A stretch of DNA of 64,000 nucleotides, taken from NCBI RefSeq assembly GCF_002019635.1, contig NZ_KV917371.1, positions 186,001-250,000 on the forward strand, in the 5' to 3' direction. This document shows positions 46,805 through 56,705 of this stretch, piece by piece (the stretch's first letter is position 1; each line of letters begins with the position of its first letter). This DNA is from Metabacillus halosaccharovorans (GTDB lineage: Bacteria > Bacillota > Bacilli > Bacillales > Bacillaceae). The notes beneath the pieces were generated by a model. The model did no database searches and was not told the origin of the DNA. It saw nothing but the letters and a program-made list of their open reading frames with translations. The position numbers and the translations under genes are program-made.

Positions 46805-47020
46805 ATGGCCAGCAACAGTAACAACAATTCTAATCAATTAGTAGTACCTGGTGCTTCTCAAGCGATCGACCAAATGAAATACGAAATCGCAAGTGAATTC
46901 GGTGTAAATCTTGGTGGCGAAACAACATCTCGTGCAAATGGTTCTGTTGGTGGCGAAATTACAAAACGCTTAGTATCTATGGCTCAGCAACAAATGAGCG
47001 GCGGAACTGGTAGATTTTAA
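46805..47020 (+). CDS. Alpha/beta-type small acid-soluble spore protein
   Basis: The 71-residue DNA-binding protein coats spore DNA and protects it from UV and other damage, then feeds amino acids on germination. The GPR protease site is [10 protein letters not shown], and the second conserved block is [15 protein letters not shown]. The N-terminus is [12 protein letters not shown]. The ATG at 46805 follows AAAGGAG; an earlier in-frame ATG at 46745 lacks support. Which Ssp paralogue it is cannot be told. Confidence 0.95.
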
Positions 47021-47069: not shown

Positions 47070-47141
47070 GGTTTGTCATGAAAACATTCTGATTGGACAC
47101 CCTAATAAAGCCTCTATTAATTGAAAAAGGGAGTGGAGTTA

Positions 47142-47312
47142 ATGGTTAACGAAAATTTTGATGAATTTATAAAGACTGAAGCAAAACATAAATCGCAATA
47201 TCTCGGCTCTAAACAGCCTTCACATGGAATATATAAAAATGATGAAGAGATTAATTCCCGAACAAATACTGATGACTCAGTAGGAGCGGATGGACGAGAT
47301 GTTTTTAAATAA
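47142..47312 (+). CDS. Small hydrophilic protein of unknown function
   Basis: The 56-residue protein reads MVNENFDEFIKTEAKHKSQY at the start and ends VGADGRDVFK. It is polar and probably mainly disordered. The ATG at 47142 follows GGGAGTGGAG; a TTG at 47121 precedes the ribosome site and is rejected. I do not recognise the family. Confidence 0.55.
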   Translation: MVNENFDEFIKTEAKHKSQYLGSKQPSHGIYKNDEEINSRTNTDDSVGADGRDVFK

Positions 47313-48161: not shown

Positions 48162-48192
48162 AAAAAAGAGATCAGACTATGGTCCAATCTCT
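48162..48192 (-). terminator. Terminator of the aminohydroxybenzoate-type operon
   Basis: AGAGAT-GGAC pairs with GTC-ATCTCT around a short loop, followed by TTTTTTG on the minus strand, 32 bases past the last gene of the operon. Confidence 0.75.
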
Positions 48193-48223: not shown

Positions 48224-48415
48224 TTATTCATTTTGATCTTTTTCGCCTCTAAAATTCTCCGGTAATTTTTCTAAAGGGATATTTATTCCAAGTTCACGTA
48301 GCATATCGAATACAGCACCTTGGATTTTGTCACCTGATGCTCCTTGTTTCTTTAACTCTGCGATTTTCTTTGATAAGTTACCAATTGCTTCGTTTGTGAA
48401 TTGTTGTTTCTCCAT
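48224..48415 (-). CDS. 63-residue protein, last gene of the biosynthetic operon
   Basis: The protein begins MEKQQFTNEAIGNLSKKIAE and is mainly helical and charged, with MLRELGINIPLEKLPENF in the second half. There is no cysteine, no carrier-protein DSL serine motif and no leader-peptide pattern. It starts 8 bases after the aldolase stop and shares the operon and its terminator. I do not recognise it. A small accessory or binding partner of the pathway enzymes is a guess. Confidence 0.6.
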   Translation of the reverse strand: MEKQQFTNEAIGNLSKKIAELKKQGASGDKIQGAVFDMLRELGINIPLEKLPENFRGEKDQNE

Positions 48416-48423
48416 ATTTCACC

Positions 48424-49188
48424 TCATGATTGATTTAAAATAGATCGGATATTTTCACATAATTTCTTTGGATCATCATCTTGAAAAATATTTCGACCTA
48501 TTGAGATTCCACTTGCACCAGCATTTACCGCATCGTCAATCATCGTGATTAAATCATCGTTTGATGATAGTCTTTCCCCACCAGCGATTAACACAGGAAT
48601 TTTCACCCCGGAAACGACTTGTTTGAATGTCTCAGATGAACCACTATAATTGACTTTCACAATATCTGCTCCAAGCTCCTCGGCTACACGTGCAGCATGG
48701 CGGATTCGGTCCGGGTCAAATTCATGCACTCTGGAACCGTCACGAACATACATCATAGCTAATAAAGGCAAGCCCCACTTATCACATTCTTCAGCAATTA
48801 AACCAACATCCTTTATTTGTTCGGCTTCGAAAGGGGATCCGAGGTTTACATGTGTTGAAATAGCAGTTGCACCCAATCGAATCGAATGCTCTACTGAAGA
48901 AACAAGTTCTTTTCGCATTGATTGAGATTCTGGAGCTAAAGCTGTTGATGCTGATAAATGAATGATAAGTTCACCTTTGTTTGAACCAATTGCATCTGTT
49001 AAATATCGAACAAGCCCTTTATGAACGACAACAGCATCTGCACCACCATCGAATACAGCTTCAACTGTTTTGTTAATATCTGTTAACCCTGTAACAGGTC
49101 CGATCGTAATTCCATGATCCATCGGGACAATGAGTAGTTTGTCGGAATGATGGTAAAGCTTCTTTAGACGAATTTCTTTTCCGGACAT
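48424..49188 (-). CDS. GriI/ADTH synthase-like class I aldolase
   Basis: The 254-residue DeoC/FbaB-fold aldolase is of the type that joins aspartate semialdehyde to a C3 or C6 ketose phosphate. The expected residues of MJ0400-type enzymes are present: Asp24-His25 in VPMDHG, Tyr147 in MMYVRD and the Schiff-base Lys178 in DIVKVNYSG. Phosphate-binding segments are IAGGER and SIGRNIF. Archaeal ADTH synthase starts an alternative shikimate route; Streptomyces GriI instead makes the precursor of 3-amino-4-hydroxybenzoate. Adjacency to the synthase II gene (18 bases) fits either. GGAGGAA precedes the ATG. Confidence 0.85.
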   Translation of the reverse strand: MSGKEIRLKKLYHHSDKLLIVPMDHGITIGPVTGLTDINKTVEAVFDGGADAVVVHKGLVRYLTDAIGSNKGELIIHLSASTALAPESQSMRKELVSSVEHSIRLGATAISTHVNLGSPFEAEQIKDVGLIAEECDKWGLPLLAMMYVRDGSRVHEFDPDRIRHAARVAEELGADIVKVNYSGSSETFKQVVSGVKIPVLIAGGERLSSNDDLITMIDDAVNAGASGISIGRNIFQDDDPKKLCENIRSILNQS

Positions 49189-49206
49189 TCTGATTCCTCC
49201 AATGTT

Positions 49207-50313
49207 CTATCTTTCGATAATTGTTTCACTTACTTTTACACCAACGTGTCTTCCTGGTTCACAAATATATGATAATAATTCATCACCCGGTTGTATTGTA
49301 GAAGCATTACGCGGTTTTCCGTCTGCACTCATAATACGAATGTGCCAGTCATCTTGTACGATTACGTTTAATTCACGCTCTCCTACTTTTCCTTTGATGA
49401 GCAACATCGGACGAACCTCTGTTTTTATACGCCCAACTGTTAACACACGAGTTTCACCTTTTGTATTCACACACAACACCTTATCTCCAGCTTTTAAATC
49501 ACTTAAATATTCAGCTGCATCCTCTGGCTGCCATACATATGAGTGAACAGCACCAGCGTTTACACGAAATGGTCTTAAATTCATATAAGGAAGGTAATGA
49601 GTTTCAGAACAAACGAATACTCCTCCACCAGAAGTTGATCCAATGATCATTCCCTCATCCTGGGTCATAATGCCAGTAGTATCAATACAAGCACGGACAC
49701 CCATCCCTGCATGCATCACCTCGGTTACGACCAATGGGTGCAATTCAAGGTTTGGTAAACTTTGTTTTGACATAAATTCAGTTAATCTTTTCACTTCACT
49801 AACATTTGATGTAGCAAATAATACGCCATCACTACCTTTTTCAAGTGTTCCATAAGCGATCTCTGTATCGATTGCTGTATTTACTGCTCTTAAAAGGACA
49901 GTATTGCTTTCCTCTAAACGGGCAATAATTAACTCTAATGGAATATTTGTCGGTAAATCAAAGTCAACAGCCGCAAAATTATACTCACTTGCTTCTCTTG
50001 AGCAGCGTTCTAACATTTCTCTATTATCAACAGAATAAAAGATACATGTTTGAAACCCTTGTTTTTTCGCTTCTGCTAGTACCTCTTCCTTATTAGAAAA
50101 AATGACATCTCCAGCAGGTACTTCCTCTAATTGTTCACTGTTTTCGACTTCAGTCATGAACGTCATTTTTTGAGGAAAATAACCTTCTTGACGTTGTTGT
50201 AGAGATACCAACACTTTATCAATTGGTGAATGGTTGATTAGTTCCCACACATCCATATTTTCTACTGATACTCCTCTTCCGTCATACCATACTTGCCTAG
50301 CTTTTTGTTGCAT
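49207..50313 (-). CDS. GriH/3-dehydroquinate synthase II-like enzyme
   Basis: The 368-residue protein matches the archaeal-type 3-dehydroquinate synthase II family across its length. Recognisable segments are WYDGRG at the start, EVMHAGMGVRACIDT, EGMIIGSTSGGGVFVCSE, RPFRVNAGAVHSYV and the C-terminal EPGRHVGV. Archaeal members oxidatively deaminate and cyclise the ADTH product to dehydroquinate. Streptomyces GriH closes the ring to give 3-amino-4-hydroxybenzoate. It is not homologous to the AroB expected elsewhere in a Bacillus. Next to the GriI-like gene in the same operon. AGGAGTAAGG precedes the ATG. Confidence 0.87.
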   Translation of the reverse strand: MQQKARQVWYDGRGVSVENMDVWELINHSPIDKVLVSLQQRQEGYFPQKMTFMTEVENSEQLEEVPAGDVIFSNKEEVLAEAKKQGFQTCIFYSVDNREMLERCSREASEYNFAAVDFDLPTNIPLELIIARLEESNTVLLRAVNTAIDTEIAYGTLEKGSDGVLFATSNVSEVKRLTEFMSKQSLPNLELHPLVVTEVMHAGMGVRACIDTTGIMTQDEGMIIGSTSGGGVFVCSETHYLPYMNLRPFRVNAGAVHSYVWQPEDAAEYLSDLKAGDKVLCVNTKGETRVLTVGRIKTEVRPMLLIKGKVGERELNVIVQDDWHIRIMSADGKPRNASTIQPGDELLSYICEPGRHVGVKVSETIIER

Positions 50314-50333
50314 CTATCCTTACTCCTTCCAAA

Positions 50334-51587
50334 CTAATTAGTTTTAATTTTGTTTAATAAATTTACTGTTTCTTGGTCAGTTAAAAAGTAACGGGGCTTC
50401 CCTTTCATTCCGAAGGAAACATCATCTGTCCTATCGTACAAGGTTCCTTTATCTAAAAGGATAATAGAGATGTTGACCCCATACATCTTCTTCAACTTTT
50501 CAATATCATTCACATGAATCGTATCAGTACTAGACTCCTTTTCAATAAATAGATAGAGTGTATTGGTAATCTTTCCTGCAGACCAAAAGCGCCTTGCAGG
50601 TAATGGAGCGATCATCTTCTCTATTTCGTACAGGTCAAATGAAACTGACTCAATTGTTATCAGGTTTTCTTTTCTGCCTCTAATGACAAATGAACGACCT
50701 CTACCACATGAACAAGAGCTGTTTATCTCCTGAACAATATCTCCTGTTGCATACCGAATCAAAGGTGTAGCTCTTTTACGAAGCGTTGTAATGACAAGAT
50801 TTCCACATTCACCAGGTTTTACATCAGTTTCAAAATCATCGTTTAAAATTTCAACATGAAAATAGTCTTCAAACATGTGAAGATGCTGTTGAGTACAATC
50901 AACCATTGCTGTGCCGACCTCTGTCATACCATAGTTATCAAACACTGGCACACCCCAGATATCTTCAATTAACTTCCTGCGATAAGGTGTTAATGGTTCA
51001 CCTGCTGTACATATTGCTCTTAAAAAAGGAAAATCTCTTTTAGGTTCAAGACCTTGCATTTCTGCCATTTCCGCCAGCATAATAGCCTGTAATGAAATAC
51101 ACGCAAGGACCGTTATATTTAATCTTTTCATCAGATCTATCACTTTTGGCATAGGTGTAACAGTTGTACGACTATCTGCAGGAATTACACATCCACTCTG
51201 CATTTGAACAGACCGGTGCATAAAATGAGATATTGTTGATAGTGCATATGGAAAGCGGATGAGAACTCGGTCATTGTGGTTAAAATTGACTCCACAGCTT
51301 GTAATACCTCTAGCAATTTCGTCAAGATCAGTCTCCGAATACCATACCGAAACAGGTGTTCCGGTTGTTCCGGAAGATTCATGGTATTGAGATAACAACA
51401 TATTAGAATCAGGCAGTAAACCAAAAGGTGATTGTTCTCTAAGATCAGCTTTCGTCGTTAACGGGATTGTTTTTAAATCATAAAGAGAATGCAGTAGTGG
51501 GATTTGAATGCGTTTAGAGTAATATGGAGATGTTTTGGCATAGGTTAGGATTTCATTTATAGCATTGATCTTCTTCTGTGTGTTCAT
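50334..51587 (-). CDS. PaaK-like adenylating acid ligase
   Basis: The 417-residue ANL-superfamily protein of the phenylacetate-CoA ligase/F390 synthetase group has the P-loop SSGTTGTPVSV (about residue 70), NYGMTEVGTAM, RYATGDIV, a CSCGRGR zinc-type motif and a C-terminal GKPRYFL lysine region. Such enzymes activate an aromatic carboxylate as an adenylate and pass it to CoA or another acceptor. The sequence differs widely from the second ligase at 52369-53703, so the two probably activate different acids or act at different steps. AGAGGTGTG precedes the ATG. Confidence 0.82.
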   Translation of the reverse strand: MNTQKKINAINEILTYAKTSPYYSKRIQIPLLHSLYDLKTIPLTTKADLREQSPFGLLPDSNMLLSQYHESSGTTGTPVSVWYSETDLDEIARGITSCGVNFNHNDRVLIRFPYALSTISHFMHRSVQMQSGCVIPADSRTTVTPMPKVIDLMKRLNITVLACISLQAIMLAEMAEMQGLEPKRDFPFLRAICTAGEPLTPYRRKLIEDIWGVPVFDNYGMTEVGTAMVDCTQQHLHMFEDYFHVEILNDDFETDVKPGECGNLVITTLRKRATPLIRYATGDIVQEINSSCSCGRGRSFVIRGRKENLITIESVSFDLYEIEKMIAPLPARRFWSAGKITNTLYLFIEKESSTDTIHVNDIEKLKKMYGVNISIILLDKGTLYDRTDDVSFGMKGKPRYFLTDQETVNLLNKIKTN

Positions 51588-51601
51588 CTACAAACACACC
51601 T

Positions 51602-52357
51602 CTATTTCATTTGTAATAAATGTTTAATATTTTGGCTTAAAATTTCTTCCCGCTCCCGGTCACTGATATTGAGCTTTAACACTTTCTCAAGTTCAATTCC
51701 GGGGTGTGATAACGGGTATTCTGATCCAAAAATCACTTTTGATGAGCCGATTTTTTTTACTGATTCTTGAATGTGAAGATAATTTCCTGTTGACGTTTCT
51801 AAATAAAAGTTCTTCATAACTGCTGCAGCTTCAAGTGCCTCTTGATCAGCAGGACCAAATCCCATATGTCCAATAATAAAATTAGTTTTTGGAAATTGTT
51901 TTGCTAATTGAACAAATTTTGCTGTCGAAGCGCCCGGACTGTAAACGACGTGCGAATAAACTGGAAACCCATAATTTCCACATAATTCAGCTAAACCTGT
52001 TACTCCCTTGGATGCAAAGGAAAACTGATGTGATAACGGAGATAACTTTAAGCCTTTAAACCCTTGTTTTTTTCCGCTTTCCAATTGAGAAAGAACATCT
52101 TTATCATGCGGATTAAGACAAATAAATCCATGAATTTGTTGATTTGCTTTGGATGCTTTTTCAACATATAAATTGTCGGGAACCGGATTATCCGGTTTTG
52201 AACGTCCTGTAATATATTCCGTCATTTTTCGGACATCCAGCATTGCACCTGGTACAGCTACTGCCTCATCAATCCCTGCCTCTTTCATCAATTTCAAATA
52301 CGTTTCCGTGTTTCCATATTCGGTATTTGAAAGATGTGTATGCGCATCGATAATCAT
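51602..52357 (-). CDS. Metal-dependent amidohydrolase-2 family protein
   Basis: The 251-residue TIM-barrel protein has the metal-binding DAHTH (His6, His8), Lys-containing FKGLKLSP, His136 in VYSHVVYS and His164 in IIGHMGFG. The C-terminal site usually reads GSDYP; here it is GSEYP with Glu213. The family includes ACMSD and several hydroxybenzoate decarboxylases as well as hydrolases. In this operon a role in processing an aminohydroxybenzoate, for instance decarboxylation or hydrolysis of an activated product, is plausible but unproven. GGGGTGG precedes the ATG. Confidence 0.8.
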   Translation of the reverse strand: MIIDAHTHLSNTEYGNTETYLKLMKEAGIDEAVAVPGAMLDVRKMTEYITGRSKPDNPVPDNLYVEKASKANQQIHGFICLNPHDKDVLSQLESGKKQGFKGLKLSPLSHQFSFASKGVTGLAELCGNYGFPVYSHVVYSPGASTAKFVQLAKQFPKTNFIIGHMGFGPADQEALEAAAVMKNFYLETSTGNYLHIQESVKKIGSSKVIFGSEYPLSHPGIELEKVLKLNISDREREEILSQNIKHLLQMK

Positions 52358-52368
52358 ATTTCCACCCC

Positions 52369-53703
52369 CTATTCATAAACAACACGAACTGTTTTTCCTT
52401 GTGGCCGTGGAAGCTTATCAACAAATTCCAATTCAAATGGTATTCCTGAAGCAAATTCAAGTTTACTAGCTAGAGAATCAGCTAAATGTTCTGATGCTTC
52501 AATTCCTTCGGCCAGTTCACAGCGCACATGAATGGCGTCATTATCACCATCGCGAGTTAATACAAATTCAAACCAGTTTCCTATTTCAGGCTCGCGCATT
52601 AAAAACTCCTCAAGATAAAATGGGGACAGAGAGGTTCCATTGTACTTAATTTGATCTACTACCCTTCCTCGAAGATAGAATTTTGGCATTGTAACTCCAC
52701 ATGGACAGCTTTCCGACTCAATATAGCCAAGATCACCTGTACGGAAACGAAGTATTGGCGTATCATAACGAAGAGCACTAGTTACAACAATCTCGCCAAT
52801 TTCTCCTTCGTCGAGTGGTTCACCTGTTTTTGGATCAACAATCTCGACAATAGCATGTGCTTGGGCAAGGTGGTATCCATCGTGGTGATCACATTCAATC
52901 CCAAGAACTCCGCATTCAAGACTTCCATAAAAGAAGTTAGCGGTAGCTCCCCAAAGGTTTTCTAATCTTTGACGAAATGCAGGAGAACATCCTTCACCCG
53001 TAATCCAAAGTTTTTTTAATTGCAAACTTTGCAAATTAAAGTCCTGCTCAGTTGCTTCTTCAGCAAGTAACATAGCCCATGATGGAGTAGTTATAACGAC
53101 ATTGGGCTTAAGATCTTTTATCATTTTTAGCGTCTTCTTCGGTGTTGAATAAGCTCCACCTTTACCTGCAGGGATAACCGTTGCTTCACAGCCTTCCATG
53201 AACGTTTTATGAAAAGCTAAACCTGCTGCACTCATTTCATATGGTAGTGCATTTAAACAAACATCTCCGGGGTTGACCTCAAATAATTCCGGATATCTGG
53301 GAGCAAGATCGTGTAAATAGTAATCATTCCAGGTGTACATCATATAGATTTCTTCTCCACCTGTTGTGCCTGTTGATACTTGCACAAGAGCAATGTCTTT
53401 TTTATCACAAGTTAATAAAATATAAGGTTTTCCTCTTAATTCATCTTTTGTTAAAAATGGTAGCTTACTTAAATCACTTAGCTTTTTTATATGACCTGGT
53501 TTCACGTTTGCTTCATCTAGTTTCTGACGGTAAAACTCATTTTTTTCATATGCTTTTTTGACAATTTGTTTTAATGATTCAACATGATAGGTCTCAATCT
53601 GCTGTTGAGACATTTTATCTGGATGAACCGATCCATTAAAGAAGCGTTTGATCGTTAAAGGCGTTCGTAACTTCTTTAATTTTTTTTCAAATAAAGAGCT
53701 CAT
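52369..53703 (-). CDS. PaaK-like adenylating acid ligase
   Basis: The 444-residue phenylacetate-CoA ligase family protein carries STGTTGGEEIYM, FYGSLECGVLG, RFRTGDLGY, CPCGVTMP (zinc-type site), RGRVVDQIKYNG and the C-terminal PQGKTVRVVYE lysine. It should activate a carboxylic acid with ATP, and the operon suggests an aminohydroxybenzoate as substrate. It overlaps the preceding TPR gene by 4 bases (ATGA), so translation is coupled. Confidence 0.83.
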   Translation of the reverse strand: MSSLFEKKLKKLRTPLTIKRFFNGSVHPDKMSQQQIETYHVESLKQIVKKAYEKNEFYRQKLDEANVKPGHIKKLSDLSKLPFLTKDELRGKPYILLTCDKKDIALVQVSTGTTGGEEIYMMYTWNDYYLHDLAPRYPELFEVNPGDVCLNALPYEMSAAGLAFHKTFMEGCEATVIPAGKGGAYSTPKKTLKMIKDLKPNVVITTPSWAMLLAEEATEQDFNLQSLQLKKLWITGEGCSPAFRQRLENLWGATANFFYGSLECGVLGIECDHHDGYHLAQAHAIVEIVDPKTGEPLDEGEIGEIVVTSALRYDTPILRFRTGDLGYIESESCPCGVTMPKFYLRGRVVDQIKYNGTSLSPFYLEEFLMREPEIGNWFEFVLTRDGDNDAIHVRCELAEGIEASEHLADSLASKLEFASGIPFELEFVDKLPRPQGKTVRVVYE

Positions 53704-55823
53704 ATTTCTTCACCTACCTGGCTTGCTACTTGCTGAGCATAATGTGATTGTGGGGCTTCATTTATAAGAGTTTTCCATGTTTTCAAAGCCTTATCTACAA
53801 AACTAGTTTTTTTGTAGAGATGACCTAAATCATAAAGCAGTTTTACATATTGTTCTTGTGTGATTGGGGGGTTCTCACTGTTTTGTTCATATGCTAATTT
53901 AACAGCTTTAAAATCCCTTACTGCTTTGTCACTTGAATGGAAGAAACCTTCAGGTAAATTGTAATAGATACATCCACGCAAATACTTCAATTCAGGATTA
54001 TTGGATTTAATAGATGTTTTTAACAACTTTAATGCCTTTATCGTTTCTCCAAACATTTCCTGTGGATCACTGGCATATTTACCCATTAAAGCTACAGAGG
54101 CAGCATAATAGGTGTTCGCAATTTCACAATTTGGAAATCTGCTTCTCGCTAGTTCCCACACTTCCAAACTTTGCTTTGCAGCGATACGACTACCTTTCGC
54201 TCCCACTAAATGAATTTCTTTTGCTTTGCTGTACATTTTCTCTTGGGAGTAAACCGAGAAGATCCGGATGTCAATTTCTTTATATGAATGAACATCTATT
54301 TTTTCTTGTATTCTATTTTTCAGTTCCTCACTTGGTTGCATTTTCAATAATTTATTCCAGATTTCCTGAGCATTTTCAAGCATCTCCAGCTTTTCATATG
54401 CGTTCCCTAAATCAAATAGCAATTGGTGGTGAACCTCCAGCTCGGCTTCATCAATAAAGGTTGTATCTTTTAATAGCATTTCTATATCGCTGACTGCAAT
54501 AGCAGCTCTTCTAAAAAACATCTCCGGTAAGCGCAAACTATGTCTTGCCCGGATTAATCGAAGTTCACTTATAGTGGGGTGTTCATTTATGAGATTATCC
54601 ATAGCTTTCATAGACTTTATAGCAGAGCCAAACATTTCATAGGTGTTAATAGAATCTCTCCCTATCATTGATTGAAGATCAATATAGGTCATTTCTACTT
54701 CTGGAGCGGTATTCGTTAACACAAATACTTCAAAAAATGATAGTGCCTCTTTCACTTCTTTTTGCCCACCATTAAGAGCATTTAGATAAAAGTTTTTTGC
54801 TTCCTCTGTTAATCCTTCTCCAGTTGTCTCATCTACACTACTCATCATTTGAGATCGAGTTTCAGTATTGGCTATAGTGTTATCAGTTTGTTTGAATGCT
54901 TTTAATTTTTCTTGATAGTTTTGCGCATTTTCATGTTGATTAAGACGTGTAAAAGCCCCAACTAAATTTTTTAAAATCTCAACATACTCTCTCTCTGATA
55001 AAATTGAGTTGTTAGATTCATAAGCTTCTATAAGATACCGAAAATCCTCAATTGCTGTCGCTGTACGTTGAAAATATAATTCCGGCAAACGATAGGATAC
55101 GTTTCCTCTTAAAATTCTTGCAATAATAAAGTCCGGATTCCTTTCCACTACTTGATCTAATTGCTTTAAACCCTCTAATGCATATTTCATTTTATCCGTA
55201 ACACTGCTTGCATCTCTTGCTAGTAGCGTTGTTGCACTTCCGAAGTAGGATTTTATATTAAGGTCGTTTGGGTGCTTCTCGTGTAAGTCTTTTAAGGCTG
55301 TATATGCCTTTTTTACAGAGAGTTTATTTCCTTTTATTCCATCATCATGGTTTTTTATTGCTTCTTCTAATGGTGATAGATTTCTTGATACATTTGATTC
55401 TGCTTCTGCAACATTTTTGATGGTAGTTGGTTTGCTCTCAGCTTTTTTTATTACAAGTTCTTTTTCTCTCTTTGAAGATTCGTTATAGTTTTGAGGGGGT
55501 GTTTTTCCTTTTACATTCCTATTCTTAGGAAGATTCGGTACATATGTTGACTTTTTATCCCTCTCGTCATAAGTGTTTTTTAATTTTTGTTTTTGTTCTA
55601 CTTTATTCTTTTTCTCTTTACTTTGGTTTGAGGGAAGATTTTTTTCTGTTTTTCTAGCTTCCAACAAGTGATTAATAATACTTTCTGTTGTTTTATTAGA
55701 CATTTCCAAAATACTATTTGGGATAGGCAAATTATTCAAAAACTGTTTATTAGAACTGGGCAAAAAACCGTTTCCCCTTGCTAGCTTTCTTAATAGTTCT
55801 GCATTTTTTTTATTATAAAGCAA
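53700..55823 (-). CDS. Protein with three TPR-like repeat modules
   Basis: The 707-residue protein has a basic, low-complexity N-terminal region (about 1-150). Three copies of a module of about 160 residues follow, at about 155-310, 343-500 and 536-700. Each module holds helical pairs and the mark LRG-x4-RLPE-x-[FY]F (about 238-251, 424-437 and 615-628). The same module forms the neighbouring 188-residue protein. TPR helices usually scaffold protein complexes. No signal peptide or membrane helix is seen. TTG start, with GGAGGTGA in the end of the upstream gene. I do not know a described family with this mark. Confidence 0.75.
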   Translation of the reverse strand: MLYNKKNAELLRKLARGNGFLPSSNKQFLNNLPIPNSILEMSNKTTESIINHLLEARKTEKNLPSNQSKEKKNKVEQKQKLKNTYDERDKKSTYVPNLPKNRNVKGKTPPQNYNESSKREKELVIKKAESKPTTIKNVAEAESNVSRNLSPLEEAIKNHDDGIKGNKLSVKKAYTALKDLHEKHPNDLNIKSYFGSATTLLARDASSVTDKMKYALEGLKQLDQVVERNPDFIIARILRGNVSYRLPELYFQRTATAIEDFRYLIEAYESNNSILSEREYVEILKNLVGAFTRLNQHENAQNYQEKLKAFKQTDNTIANTETRSQMMSSVDETTGEGLTEEAKNFYLNALNGGQKEVKEALSFFEVFVLTNTAPEVEMTYIDLQSMIGRDSINTYEMFGSAIKSMKAMDNLINEHPTISELRLIRARHSLRLPEMFFRRAAIAVSDIEMLLKDTTFIDEAELEVHHQLLFDLGNAYEKLEMLENAQEIWNKLLKMQPSEELKNRIQEKIDVHSYKEIDIRIFSVYSQEKMYSKAKEIHLVGAKGSRIAAKQSLEVWELARSRFPNCEIANTYYAASVALMGKYASDPQEMFGETIKALKLLKTSIKSNNPELKYLRGCIYYNLPEGFFHSSDKAVRDFKAVKLAYEQNSENPPITQEQYVKLLYDLGHLYKKTSFVDKALKTWKTLINEAPQSHYAQQVASQVGEEI

Positions 55824-55825
55824 CT

Positions 55826-56392
55826 CTATTCACCTCCGTTCTTTCTTGCTTTTTCAATTAATTTTTTATATTTACTATTGTTCATCTTAAGGAGTTTCCC
55901 CCAGATATTTTCAGCATTTTGATTGTCTCCTAAGGTTTTATAGGCAATACCTAAATTCAATAGTAACTCACTGTATTGCTCCTTTGAAATGTTGTTCCTT
56001 TTATCTTCATATTCTTTAATAAGGAATTGAAAATCCTCAATTGCTGTTTTTGTTTTTTTAAAATACGTTTCCGGAAGTCGAAATGCAACATTACCTCTTA
56101 ACACTCTAATTTCACTATTACTCGGCTCTGTTTTGACAGCTTGATCAAGAACTTTTAATCCTCTCTTTGCAAGATTCATTTTTTCTATTAAATCTGGATG
56201 GTCTCTTGCAATTAAAGCGGATGAACTACCATAATAGGCTTCAATAAGTGCATGATTAGCAGTTTTTAATTTTACTTTTTTTAATATTTCATAGGCTTTC
56301 TTCGCTGCTTGCTTATCACCATCTATGGCTTGTTGATGAAGTTGGATTGCTTCTTGAAACTCTTTTTTCCAATCTCCTTTACTATACGCCAA
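55826..56392 (-). CDS. Single-module TPR-like protein, first gene of the operon
   Basis: The 188-residue helical protein consists of one copy of the module repeated three times in the next gene. Its shared marks are KKAYEILKKV, KMNLAKRGLKVLDQAVK, VLRGNVAFRLPETYF (about 97-111) and LLLNLGIAYKTLGDNQNAENIW. Common origin by duplication is clear. The TTG start has a perfect AAAGGAGGTG ribosome site 7 bases upstream. It begins the operon, separated from the next gene by 2 bases. Function unknown. Confidence 0.75.
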   Translation of the reverse strand: MAYSKGDWKKEFQEAIQLHQQAIDGDKQAAKKAYEILKKVKLKTANHALIEAYYGSSSALIARDHPDLIEKMNLAKRGLKVLDQAVKTEPSNSEIRVLRGNVAFRLPETYFKKTKTAIEDFQFLIKEYEDKRNNISKEQYSELLLNLGIAYKTLGDNQNAENIWGKLLKMNNSKYKKLIEKARKNGGE

Positions 56393-56705
56393 TCCCTGCC
56401 ACCTCCTTTGGTTCGTATACTATTTGCTAGTTGACTCTTTTCTGAGTACATATACAACTTATGTGACGGTCATCGTAAAGTGATAGACGAAAATGGAAAT
56501 GAAGATATTTGATGATAGCGACTAAAATGGAAGCGTATACAAATCGTGTTTTTTGATTTTATTGATTAAGTAGTCTATTACTACCTATTTTTGGTCATTT
56601 GAACTTTTGCAGATATTACATTATTTGGAGATTAAACTAAAAAACCTACCAATTCTTCTGATTGGTAGATTTTTCGTGATAAAATATAGCCAGTACGTTG
56701 TGATA
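56393..56705. other. Region upstream of the biosynthetic operon
   Basis: This holds the terminator of the upstream DUF421 gene (56646-56668) and must contain the operon promoter. No clear sigma-A, sigma-E, sigma-G or sigma-K promoter could be picked out. There is no open reading frame or recognisable riboswitch. Confidence 0.5.
56644..56675 (-). terminator. Intrinsic terminator of the DUF421 gene
   Basis: CTACCAAT pairs with ATTGGTAG around a seven-base loop. A run of six T follows on the minus strand. Confidence 0.8.

Follow-up and report, generated by a model that had tools for sequence, protein, structure and literature searches.

The eight minus-strand genes at positions 48224–56392 of the window (the whole stretch of 64,000 nucleotides of Metabacillus halosaccharovorans DNA analyzed here) probably encode a TPR-linked branch of the closoxazole-type pathway, in which 3-amino-4-hydroxybenzoate (3,4-AHBA) would be made, coupled, and cyclized, with TPR proteins as a scaffold and a 63-residue protein (p63) as a partner; a part in spore biology is suggested only. 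In the closoxazole sets described in the available text of PMC12118335, clxA-E of Clostridium cavendishii and pfxA-E of Pyxidicoccus fallax, ligases and an amidohydrolase make benzoxazoles from 3,4-AHBA. A reading made from the sequence only had called the operon undescribed and its product unlike known members. Neither description is supported, because the five enzyme types it encodes are those of clxA-E and pfxA-E, which already make benzoxazoles from 3,4-AHBA, and a benzoxazole is thus the expected product type. That reading also missed the amidohydrolase as the probable benzoxazole-forming enzyme and the status of the TPR and p63 genes as conserved partners in a distinct branch. The part for which no published description was found is the pair of TPR proteins, both from a single family, and p63 beside the five known enzymes; these additions mark the operon as a separate, widespread branch.

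Operon Structure

An ORF check of the window found all eight reading frames where the sequence-only reading had placed them, with the same gaps of 2–20 bases and one 4-base overlap: in order from 48224 to 56392, the intergenic distances are 8, 18, 20, 14, 11, −4, and 2 bases. The first gene, TPR188 (55826–56392, on the minus strand like all the others; 188 aa, TTG start), encodes a protein of a TPR family. It is followed by TPR707 (53700–55823; 707 aa), which has an N-terminal part without a family match and three modules of the TPR188 family; ligB (52369–53703; 444 aa), a PaaK-like adenylating ligase with the C-terminal domain PF14535; amh (51602–52357; 251 aa), an amidohydrolase (PF04909); ligA (50334–51587; 417 aa), a PaaK-like ligase with a conserved Cys/His zinc motif; syn (49207–50313; 368 aa), of the 3-dehydroquinate synthase II (DHQS-II) family and a GriH-type candidate 3,4-AHBA synthase; ald (48424–49188; 254 aa), a DhnA/ADTH-synthase-type aldolase and GriI-type candidate; and p63 (48224–48415; 63 aa), a recurrent partner gene. 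Family matches were to PF01791 and TIGR01949 (above cut-off), PF01959, PF00501 (twice), and PF04909; TPR matches were weak, and p63 had zero matches in Pfam or NCBIfam.

A promoter-like conserved block, TCTATCAC-N16-CATAAGTT, lies at 56456–56487 (minus strand), and a hairpin with a T-run at 56639–56675 (minus strand) lies between the operon and a yetF-like gene. The terminator proposed earlier 3′ of p63, at 48162–48192, is visible on inspection of the minus strand as an intrinsic-terminator-like hairpin (AGAGAT-tg-GAC-cata-GTC-tg-ATCTCT, with a T-run after it), but it is absent from the list of a mechanical terminator scan. That scan returned 6 terminator-like sites, the one at 56639–56675 included, against a shuffle mean of 5.7, which is no excess.

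Aldolase/Synthase Pair

The ald/syn pair is best read as the source of 3,4-AHBA, as had been proposed earlier. A DhnA-type aldolase and a DHQS-II-type synthase, the GriI/GriH-type combination, occur here in a genome that encodes an ordinary aroB elsewhere (E 8e-45), and a DAHP synthase as well; this reading is preferred for that reason and because ligases and a condensing-type amidohydrolase accompany the pair. The two enzymes would convert aspartate semialdehyde and a triose phosphate into 3,4-AHBA. Absence of the usual aroB, together with clustering of both proteins among archaeal enzymes, had been named in advance as grounds for giving up this assignment, and the genome search found the gene; since aroB and DAHP synthase are both encoded elsewhere, a shikimate role for the pair was rejected.

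It is very improbable that ald and syn form an archaeal-type dehydroquinate route while the remaining genes are catabolic, their CoA ligases and amidohydrolase having aromatic acids as substrates. The best PDB match of ald is MJ0400 (E 4e-73), ald passes the ADTH synthase cut-off (TIGR01949), and decarboxylases do occur within Amidohydro_2, all of which would suit such a route; yet the genome has its own aroB and DAHP synthase, the pair stays beside the amidohydrolase in 14 of 14 operons of the genus, no ring-cleavage family appeared among the genes scanned, and a nearby alpha/beta hydrolase scores 64 bits against PcaD, for which the cut-off is 256 bits. The search of PDB with syn gave 0 matches at E 0.01.

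Ligases and Amidohydrolase

Judging from the enzyme families and their published relatives, ligA would adenylate 3,4-AHBA and couple a second unit, amh would form the benzoxazole ring in a metal-dependent condensation, and a further unit would be added or activated by ligB. The best PDB match of ligA is 9s3l (E 9e-62), which we take to be ClxA because the ClxA residues discussed in the available text of PMC12519233 (Ser118, Lys140, Tyr218, and Asn226) land on those letters. Over the ClxA stretch of 9s3l, ligA is 37% identical; it retains Ser118 and has Thr for Asn226, Asn for Tyr218, and Ser, with an adjoining Arg, for Lys140. Natural oligomer formation through loss of Lys140 was considered and set aside as over-reading, an Arg occupying the next position in 8 of 9 other alignment rows. 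The zinc motif of NatL2 (residues from the available text of PMC7204872) is retained, its Cys, His, Cys, and Cys being invariant in the ligA alignment. In a quick ligase tree with SH-aLRT support only, ClxA groups with Lachnospiraceae rows (94) and ligA belongs to a different, 37-row clade (99), so that the TPR-linked ligases form a clade apart from ClxA.

The amidohydrolase is the likely benzoxazole-forming (cyclocondensation) step. Its putative metal ligands are H6, H8, H136, H164, and E213: the HxH, His, and His elements are retained, and the strand-8 acid is Glu in every alignment row, in contrast to the Asp of NatAM. The NatAM-type site of four His and one Asp is therefore matched in its four His and changed from Asp to Glu.

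Conservation and the TPR Link

Across the genus, 14 of 21 genomes keep the operon in synteny, so it is no chance grouping. All eight genes are present in 10 of the 14, two of these (L025 and L030) with an interrupted frame; both ligases are missing from the other four, each of which has a ligB relative (70–72%) elsewhere in its genome. The order TPR-ligB-amh-ligA-synthase-aldolase repeats from Metabacillus through Syntrophomonas, and p63 relatives adjoin ald, ligA, or amh in distant class-2 loci. Among the Bacillota genomes sampled, a TPR gene was present, at the chosen match level, in 19 of the 20 with an amh-type amidohydrolase and in 10 of the 309 without one (Fisher p 1e-22, uncorrected for kinship among genomes). 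A second even sample gave TPR linkage in 4 of 5 genomes with the amidohydrolase, and the two genes share a stretch in 14 of the 15 phylum loci fetched. Two loci (L104 and L105) were tallied as having ligases without TPR only through a cut stretch; L250 and L251, whose contigs match theirs in length, hold TPR and amidohydrolase. As judged by this conservation, the TPR and p63 genes belong to the enzyme system.

The amidohydrolase loci compared numbered 79, a set without C. cavendishii and P. fallax. In a tree of 59 rows, one of them a distant additional amidohydrolase from L103 with a very long branch, the TPR-linked Bacillota sequences (39 rows) form a single group with support 92/97. An earlier tree with fewer loci, in which the spirochaete MAG L114 was labeled TPR-free, had the TPR rows on one side of a branch (72/97). 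This MAG has a TPR gene, seen by profile search and missed by BLAST, together with most of the enzymes, and it stands in the tree as a separate TPR occurrence; a single origin of the TPR link over the whole amidohydrolase tree is therefore unsupported.

These patterns bear on whether the operon is instead an ordinary closoxazole-like secondary-metabolite cluster, with a small diffusible product (antibiotic or chelator) and with TPR and p63 as accessories, which we consider somewhat unlikely. TPR-free clusters of the same enzymes do exist in Bacillota, both in the same genus (L038–L040) and in Lachnospiraceae and Paenibacillus (L101–L103 and L157), and the enzyme types are shared with clx and pfx. 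The synteny among congeners, the usual TPR linkage in even samples, and the separation of TPR-linked from TPR-free Bacillota amidohydrolases argue against it, as does the lack of any transporter, regulator, or resistance gene within the eight genes. A further TPR-free cluster in Bacillota is L071.

Within the TPR-linked pathway that we favor, the TPR proteins are proposed to be a dedicated scaffold for the enzymes or the product, and p63 would be a small dedicated partner; their membership of the system rests on conservation. The two TPR proteins do share modules, as the sequence-only reading had noticed: those of TPR707 are 45, 30, and 29% identical to TPR188 (E 3e-40 to 3e-20). The predicted structure of TPR188 (AF2 pLDDT 92.9) has MamA as its top Foldseek match (E 8e-4, TM 0.61/0.66).

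Sister Loci and a Possible Second Monomer

In each of the 35 sister loci read, the TPR family and ligase types of the operon occur together with chorismate-lyase-like genes, and these accompanying genes imply 4-hydroxybenzoate as an alternative monomer there. Metabacillus also has split ligase loci (L160, L163, and L170) with a chorismate-lyase-like gene in front (29% identity, E 3e-29 for that of L160). It is accordingly possible, though with a chance clearly short of even, that the ligases of the operon couple a different aromatic acid, such as 4-hydroxybenzoate, with 3,4-AHBA to give a mixed ester, amide, or benzoxazole unlike closoxazole. Along with the sister and split loci, the altered ClxA positions of ligA would fit such a product, and ClxA and PfxC can join 4-hydroxybenzoate as an ester, according to the available texts of PMC12519233 and PMC12118335; against it, a search of the window from 40001 to 62000 found no chorismate-lyase-like gene.

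Possible Spore-Related Signals and Neighbors

Several observations suggest a role of the operon in the spore, with expression in the sporulating mother cell and an aromatic product that would go to the spore. The conserved block at 56456–56487 resembles what we take to be the SigK consensus. Of 26 loci, 17 have AC-N15-17-CATANNNT upstream of the first TPR gene (shuffles average 1.8 and reach at most 6), and of 33 sister loci, 16 have CATANNNTA ahead of the TPR gene (shuffles average 2.8, again at most 6), both counts resting on start estimates of the kind found to be late for class-1 ligB; the 17 matches are not independent, since 15 come from Metabacillus and Bacillus suaedae. The strict form of the presumed SigK consensus, ending in TA, was found in 3 of 26 loci (shuffled maximum 3), and a SigE-type pattern in 0 of 26 loci and 1 of 33 sister loci. 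The excess of CATANNNT upstream of class-1 ligB (26 of 33) was discarded as an artefact, because the start estimate is late and most matches lie inside the coding start; a SigA-type count of 9 of 33 was likewise left unused. A second match of TCTATCAC-N15-17-CATANNNT in the genome itself (L216) looks like chance, a backward control pattern having also matched once, and no regulon can thus be read from the block.

A SASP gene adjoins the operon and is present in 14 of 14 Metabacillus loci; the split ligase pair likewise has one as a neighbor in all 3 loci read, one of them confirmed. In L069 two gerPA/gerPF-like genes, one above cut-off, directly follow the operon, and YkwD was counted among the neighboring spore hints. 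Co-occurrence with SpoIVA proved weak as spore evidence (28 of 29 TPR genomes vs. 249 of 300 others, p 0.06). The system is not confined to spore formers, L114 being a counter-example in which no SpoIVA was found, with the proviso that this is a binned genome and contamination is possible.

A bolder and unlikely extension is that these are ancient Bacillota spore-associated machines, in which TPR scaffolds and PaaK-like ligases string 3,4-AHBA (as oligo- or polybenzoxazole) or 4-hydroxybenzoate (as an aromatic polyester) into a protective or pigmented endospore layer. Thermostable plastics (PMC8697445, available text) and poly(benzoxazole/benzimidazole) (PMC6595406, available text) have 3,4-AHBA as a precursor, and such a polymer would be their natural counterpart. 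If the TPR-linked pathway itself is borne out, benzoxazole chemistry would be more than scattered secondary metabolism, forming a conserved system present in about 6% of the Bacillota sampled (TPR and amidohydrolase together in 19 of 329 genomes) with a sister system seemingly built on 4-hydroxybenzoate. A TPR family and a family of small proteins, neither with an assigned function, would also gain one. Benzoxazole synthesis would have new ligase/amidohydrolase pairs at its disposal, and spore research would have a new class of aromatic small molecules or polymers to search for.

Comparison with Known Systems

A literature search returned no TPR-linked or spore-linked system of this type among the matches listed, most subscription papers lying outside its scope. 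MamA, a magnetosome TPR protein, is 15% identical to TPR188, a generic TPR resemblance. The GriI/GriH, BagB/BagC, and FevI/FevH pairs belong to the same aldolase and synthase families as ald and syn (NF041223, 225 bits; NF041224, 229 bits), although these scores are far under the curated cut-offs of 500 and 750, and unlike those systems the operon has no tyrosinase-like oxidase within its eight genes. The nataxazole enzymes NatL2 and NatAM are likewise a ligase and a metal-dependent amidohydrolase, with the ligase zinc motif and the HxH/His/His pattern. However, NatAM has about 494 residues, an extra domain, and Asp345 (PMC7204872, available text) vs. the 251 residues and Glu of amh, and the nataxazole monomer is 3-hydroxyanthranilate (PMC12118335, available text).

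The closest likeness is to clx and pfx, each of which, like the operon, combines an aldolase, a DHQS-II-type synthase, two AMP ligases, and a small amidohydrolase in one cluster; direct sequence comparison was with ClxA, while ClxB-E and the Pfx proteins were likened by enzyme type. The 37% identity of ligA to ClxA is near the 38–40% similarity of pfx to clx ligases given in the available text of PMC12118335, in which the pfx set has five genes and the word “TPR” is absent. The paper lists masses of m/z 289.08 for the dimer, 271.07 for the benzoxazole, and 406.10 for the trimer. Relative to both sets, the operon adds two TPR genes and p63, is inherited in synteny across the genus, and has its ligA in another clade.

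Operon Content and Gene Families

Re-examination of open reading frames in the window bore out the order, gaps and strand of all eight genes proposed in the sequence-only reading. The minus-strand operon (48224-56392) encodes, first to last, two TPR proteins of 188 and 707 residues (TPR188 and TPR707), a ligase (LigB), an amidohydrolase, a second ligase (LigA), a synthase, an aldolase and a 63-residue protein (p63); the genome spans 5.4 Mb in 4 contigs. Profile scans placed the aldolase in the DeoC/LacD type (312 bits vs. an ADTH synthase cut-off of 299.45) and the others in the DHQ synthase II, PaaK-like ligase (two), Amidohydro_2 and TPR (two) families, while p63 had no family match in Pfam or NCBIfam. 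A plus-strand ORF of the same length as p63 (63 residues, 47121-47312), also lacking a Pfam match, lies between SASP and ykwD genes. TPR707 contains three modules resembling TPR188. The AlphaFold2 model of TPR188 is all-helical (pLDDT 92.9), and its nearest solved folds in Foldseek are TPR proteins, with MamA at the top (E 8e-4); judged from the model, this likeness is a generic TPR resemblance that sets no function.

Conservation within Metabacillus

Within the family, 17 of 80 genomes searched have an amidohydrolase match; in the genus, 14 of 21 have one at 80% identity or higher. In those 14 the operon is syntenic, flanked by ykwD and an alpha/beta-hydrolase gene at one end and by proC at the other; 12 also have a yetF-like gene. 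All eight genes are present in ten of the 14 operons, two of these with an interrupted frame. Split tblastn matches, reflecting frame interruption or assembly error, were seen for the aldolase in L025, TPR707 in L030 and proC in L028 (L-numbers denote fetched loci, G-numbers genomes). Both ligase genes are missing from the other four operons (G053, G056, G058, G071), all of whose genomes carry a LigB relative elsewhere (70-72%), as well as further TPR matches that make up a second set. At the three such loci read (L160, L163, L170), the LigB relative is paired with a LigA relative; a chorismate-lyase-like gene precedes the pair, in L160 with a pterin-4a-carbinolamine dehydratase gene in between.

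Of the remaining seven genomes of the genus, G064 has a locus (L263) of the amidohydrolase-free sister type described below and G059 a TPR-free cluster; in G055, G060, G066, G069 and G070 both LigB and TPR fell below the thresholds used. Three Metabacillus genomes harbour divergent closoxazole-like clusters that lack TPR genes (L038, L039, L040); two of these genomes, G052 and G062, have the operon too (clusters L039 and L040). Both of the latter clusters contain a chorismate-lyase-like gene, and at L039 a gerPA gene (E 5e-30) lies roughly 2.7 kb from the cluster.

TPR-Amidohydrolase Linkage across Bacillota

At a threshold of E 1e-100, the amidohydrolase was found in five of 397 genomes in the order sample; in four of these, TPR188 relatives adjoin it, and two further genomes carry a TPR relative but no amidohydrolase at this level. 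In the phylum sample it was found in 22 of 398 genomes at a threshold of E 1.8e-100. A TPR profile search of 329 phylum genomes, including 20 of those 22, found the TPR family in 19 of the 20 (the exception being G119) vs. 10 of 309 others (p 1e-22, kinship ignored). Both genes lay in one stretch in 14 of 15 fetched phylum loci and on separate contigs in G645. One Bacillales genome (G181, L072:4402-5043) has a solitary TPR-family gene; the 14 kb read there contains none of the ligase, amidohydrolase and synthase genes.

Named genomes were scanned with an alignment of ClxA (a closoxazole-pathway ligase) and LigA; the best 80 of 112 relatives yielded 79 loci. After removal of 11 duplicates from 122 profile-annotated loci, 111 remained: TPR genes accompany the amidohydrolase in 37, and ligases but no amidohydrolase in 35; TPR is absent from 20 loci with the amidohydrolase and from 8 with ligases, and the other 11 fall outside these groups. 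These counts hinge on search seeds and stretch ends, only the order and phylum samples being even. The gene order from TPR through ligB, amidohydrolase, ligA and synthase to aldolase is shared by Metabacillus, Bacillus suaedae, Aquisalibacillus, Brevibacillus dissolubilis and Syntrophomonas zehnderi; Heliorestis has the synthase-aldolase pair first, and clostridial loci such as L249-L251, L255 and L258 have other arrangements.

The amidohydrolase tree had 59 rows after 9 duplicates or fragments were set aside. In it, the 38 TPR-linked Bacillota rows form one group (92/97) with L261, whose TPR gene sits on another contig. A second TPR occurrence, the spirochaete L114, falls next to Sorangium (100/100). 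An earlier 45-row tree, in which L114 was labelled TPR-free, gave 72/97. Besides two TPR genes, the L114 locus, from a MAG, contains genes for synthase, LigB, amidohydrolase and LigA. A quick tree of LigA was built from 80 rows, the sister-type ones being drawn from 12 of the 35 loci. One of its clades (37 rows, SH-aLRT 99) unites the three split Metabacillus rows with 30 of 32 TPR-plus-amidohydrolase rows; outside it lie L249 and L114. ClxA groups with Lachnospiraceae rows (SH-aLRT 94), and sister-type rows are separate.

By profile search, p63 relatives adjoin the aldolase, ligA or amidohydrolase gene in Metabacillus, Bacillus suaedae, L069, Brevibacillus, L252, L253, L256 and some MAGs, although twelve of the matched sequences seeded the profile and so match by construction. 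In Syntrophomonas the relative lies about 0.9 kb from the aldolase gene. A second, shorter copy is present in 9 of 14 Metabacillus loci, the window having none, and a few weak matches are on the opposite strand (L124/L248, L143).

Sister Loci and a Predicted Second Monomer Supply

The 35 TPR-plus-ligase loci come from Paenibacillus, Cohnella, Gracilibacillus, Peribacillus, Shimazuella and others. With L109 proteins as phmmer queries, a chorismate-lyase-like gene was found in 35/35 and DAHP synthase in 30/35; in L109, the sole sister locus scanned with Pfam, PF01947 and PF00793 were over cut-off. These loci (L106-L155, e.g., L109:5153-11968) contain TPR genes, ligB-ligA, DAHP synthase and the chorismate-lyase-like gene. 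A gene for a small membrane-type protein frequently comes next, and L109 and L117 also have a CAAX-type protease-family gene. The chorismate-lyase-like and DAHP synthase genes lead us to predict 4-hydroxybenzoate as the monomer, a compound joined as an ester by ClxA (PMC12519233) and PfxC (PMC12118335). Compared with the TPR-amidohydrolase loci, this would mean one TPR family and one ligase-type pair with two different monomer supplies, a combination for which no published mention was found in the literature searched.

Indications of a Spore Link

A block upstream of the TPR188 gene, TCTATCAC...CATAA, is kept in all 14 Metabacillus loci. The SigK promoter consensus is AC-N16/17-CATANNNTA, and the block resembles it in sequence, with the final A of CATANNNTA replaced by G. 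Nine patterns were run on three upstream sets, one of which was discarded. AC-N15-17-CATANNNT occurs in 17 of 26 TPR-amidohydrolase upstream regions (100 shuffles: mean 1.8, maximum 6), but Metabacillus and Bacillus suaedae account for 15 of the 17. The strict form occurs in 3 of 26 (shuffled maximum 3). Upstream of the sister-type TPR gene, CATANNNTA is present in 16 of 33 regions (shuffled mean 2.8, maximum 6); six of the 33 contain the strict form (shuffled mean 0.3, maximum 3). By genus, CATANNNTA was found in Paenibacillus (9/15), Gracilibacillus (4/7), Cohnella (0/5), and Bacillus, Aquibacillus and Peribacillus (1/1 each), with none in three single genera.

A SASP gene (46805-47020 in the window) lies beside the operon in 14/14 Metabacillus loci and near the split ligase pair in 3/3 (one confirmed). 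The ykwD gene on the same side is of the spore type and exceeds the TIGR02909 cut-off. Two gerPA/gerPF-like genes, one over cut-off, directly follow the operon on the same strand in L069 (3862-4326), where an HSP20-family gene is also near. Behind the last TPR gene of L070 (14598-15005) and L127 is a Tyr/Asn-rich protein without a family match, coat-like to the eye. Counting against a spore role, SpoIVA is nearly as frequent in TPR-free genomes (p 0.06). A set of 31 genomes checked for SpoIVA includes 25 known TPR carriers (L104's genome counted via L250), of which 23 have it; the two without it are L125's MAG and the spirochaete MAG of L114.

Comparison with Closoxazole-Type Pathways

A shikimate route for the aldolase-synthase pair, whose aldolase matches archaeal MJ0400 well (E 4e-73), is made unlikely by aroB (E 8e-45) and DAHP synthase (E 4e-90) elsewhere in the genome. 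Absence of the usual aroB was half of what the sequence-only reading had set against its own proposal, and the genome search found the gene.

In Clostridium cavendishii (clxA-E) and Pyxidicoccus fallax (pfxA-E), 3-amino-4-hydroxybenzoate (3,4-AHBA) is assigned to aldolase and synthase (PMC12118335); an AMP ligase couples two units, a small amidohydrolase condenses the coupled product into a benzoxazole, and the third unit is attached by the other ligase. Reconstitution was carried out with PfxA, PfxB and PfxC (PMC12118335). All five of its enzyme types are present in the window. The top PDB match of LigA is 9s3l (E 9e-62, 37% identity), which we identify as ClxA because it has Ser, Lys, Tyr and Asn at positions 118, 140, 218 and 226, respectively, in agreement with the ClxA paper (PMC12519233). 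LigA retains Ser118. Asn226, which touches the para-hydroxyl group, is Thr, as in the nataxazole enzyme NatL2; Tyr218 is Asn; and Lys140, modelled as holding the acceptor, is replaced by Ser then Arg (ClxA and NatL2 residues from PMC12519233). Because of the changes at Asn226, Tyr218 and Lys140, LigA may act on a substrate other than that of ClxA.

The four histidines of the nataxazole amidohydrolase NatAM are all present in the window protein. The strand-8 acid is Glu in all rows of the alignment (rows L151 and L173 partial), whereas NatAM has Asp345 (PMC7204872); some histidines are missing in the actinobacterial rows L169 and L174. Within the literature searched, the novelty lies in the breadth and existence of the TPR-plus-p63 branch, its likely 4-hydroxybenzoate sister and the hints of a spore role. 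Production of 3,4-AHBA, as originally suggested, is the best available idea of what the operon would do, judging by its genes. The enzyme set, first taken to be undescribed, is of the closoxazole type already described.
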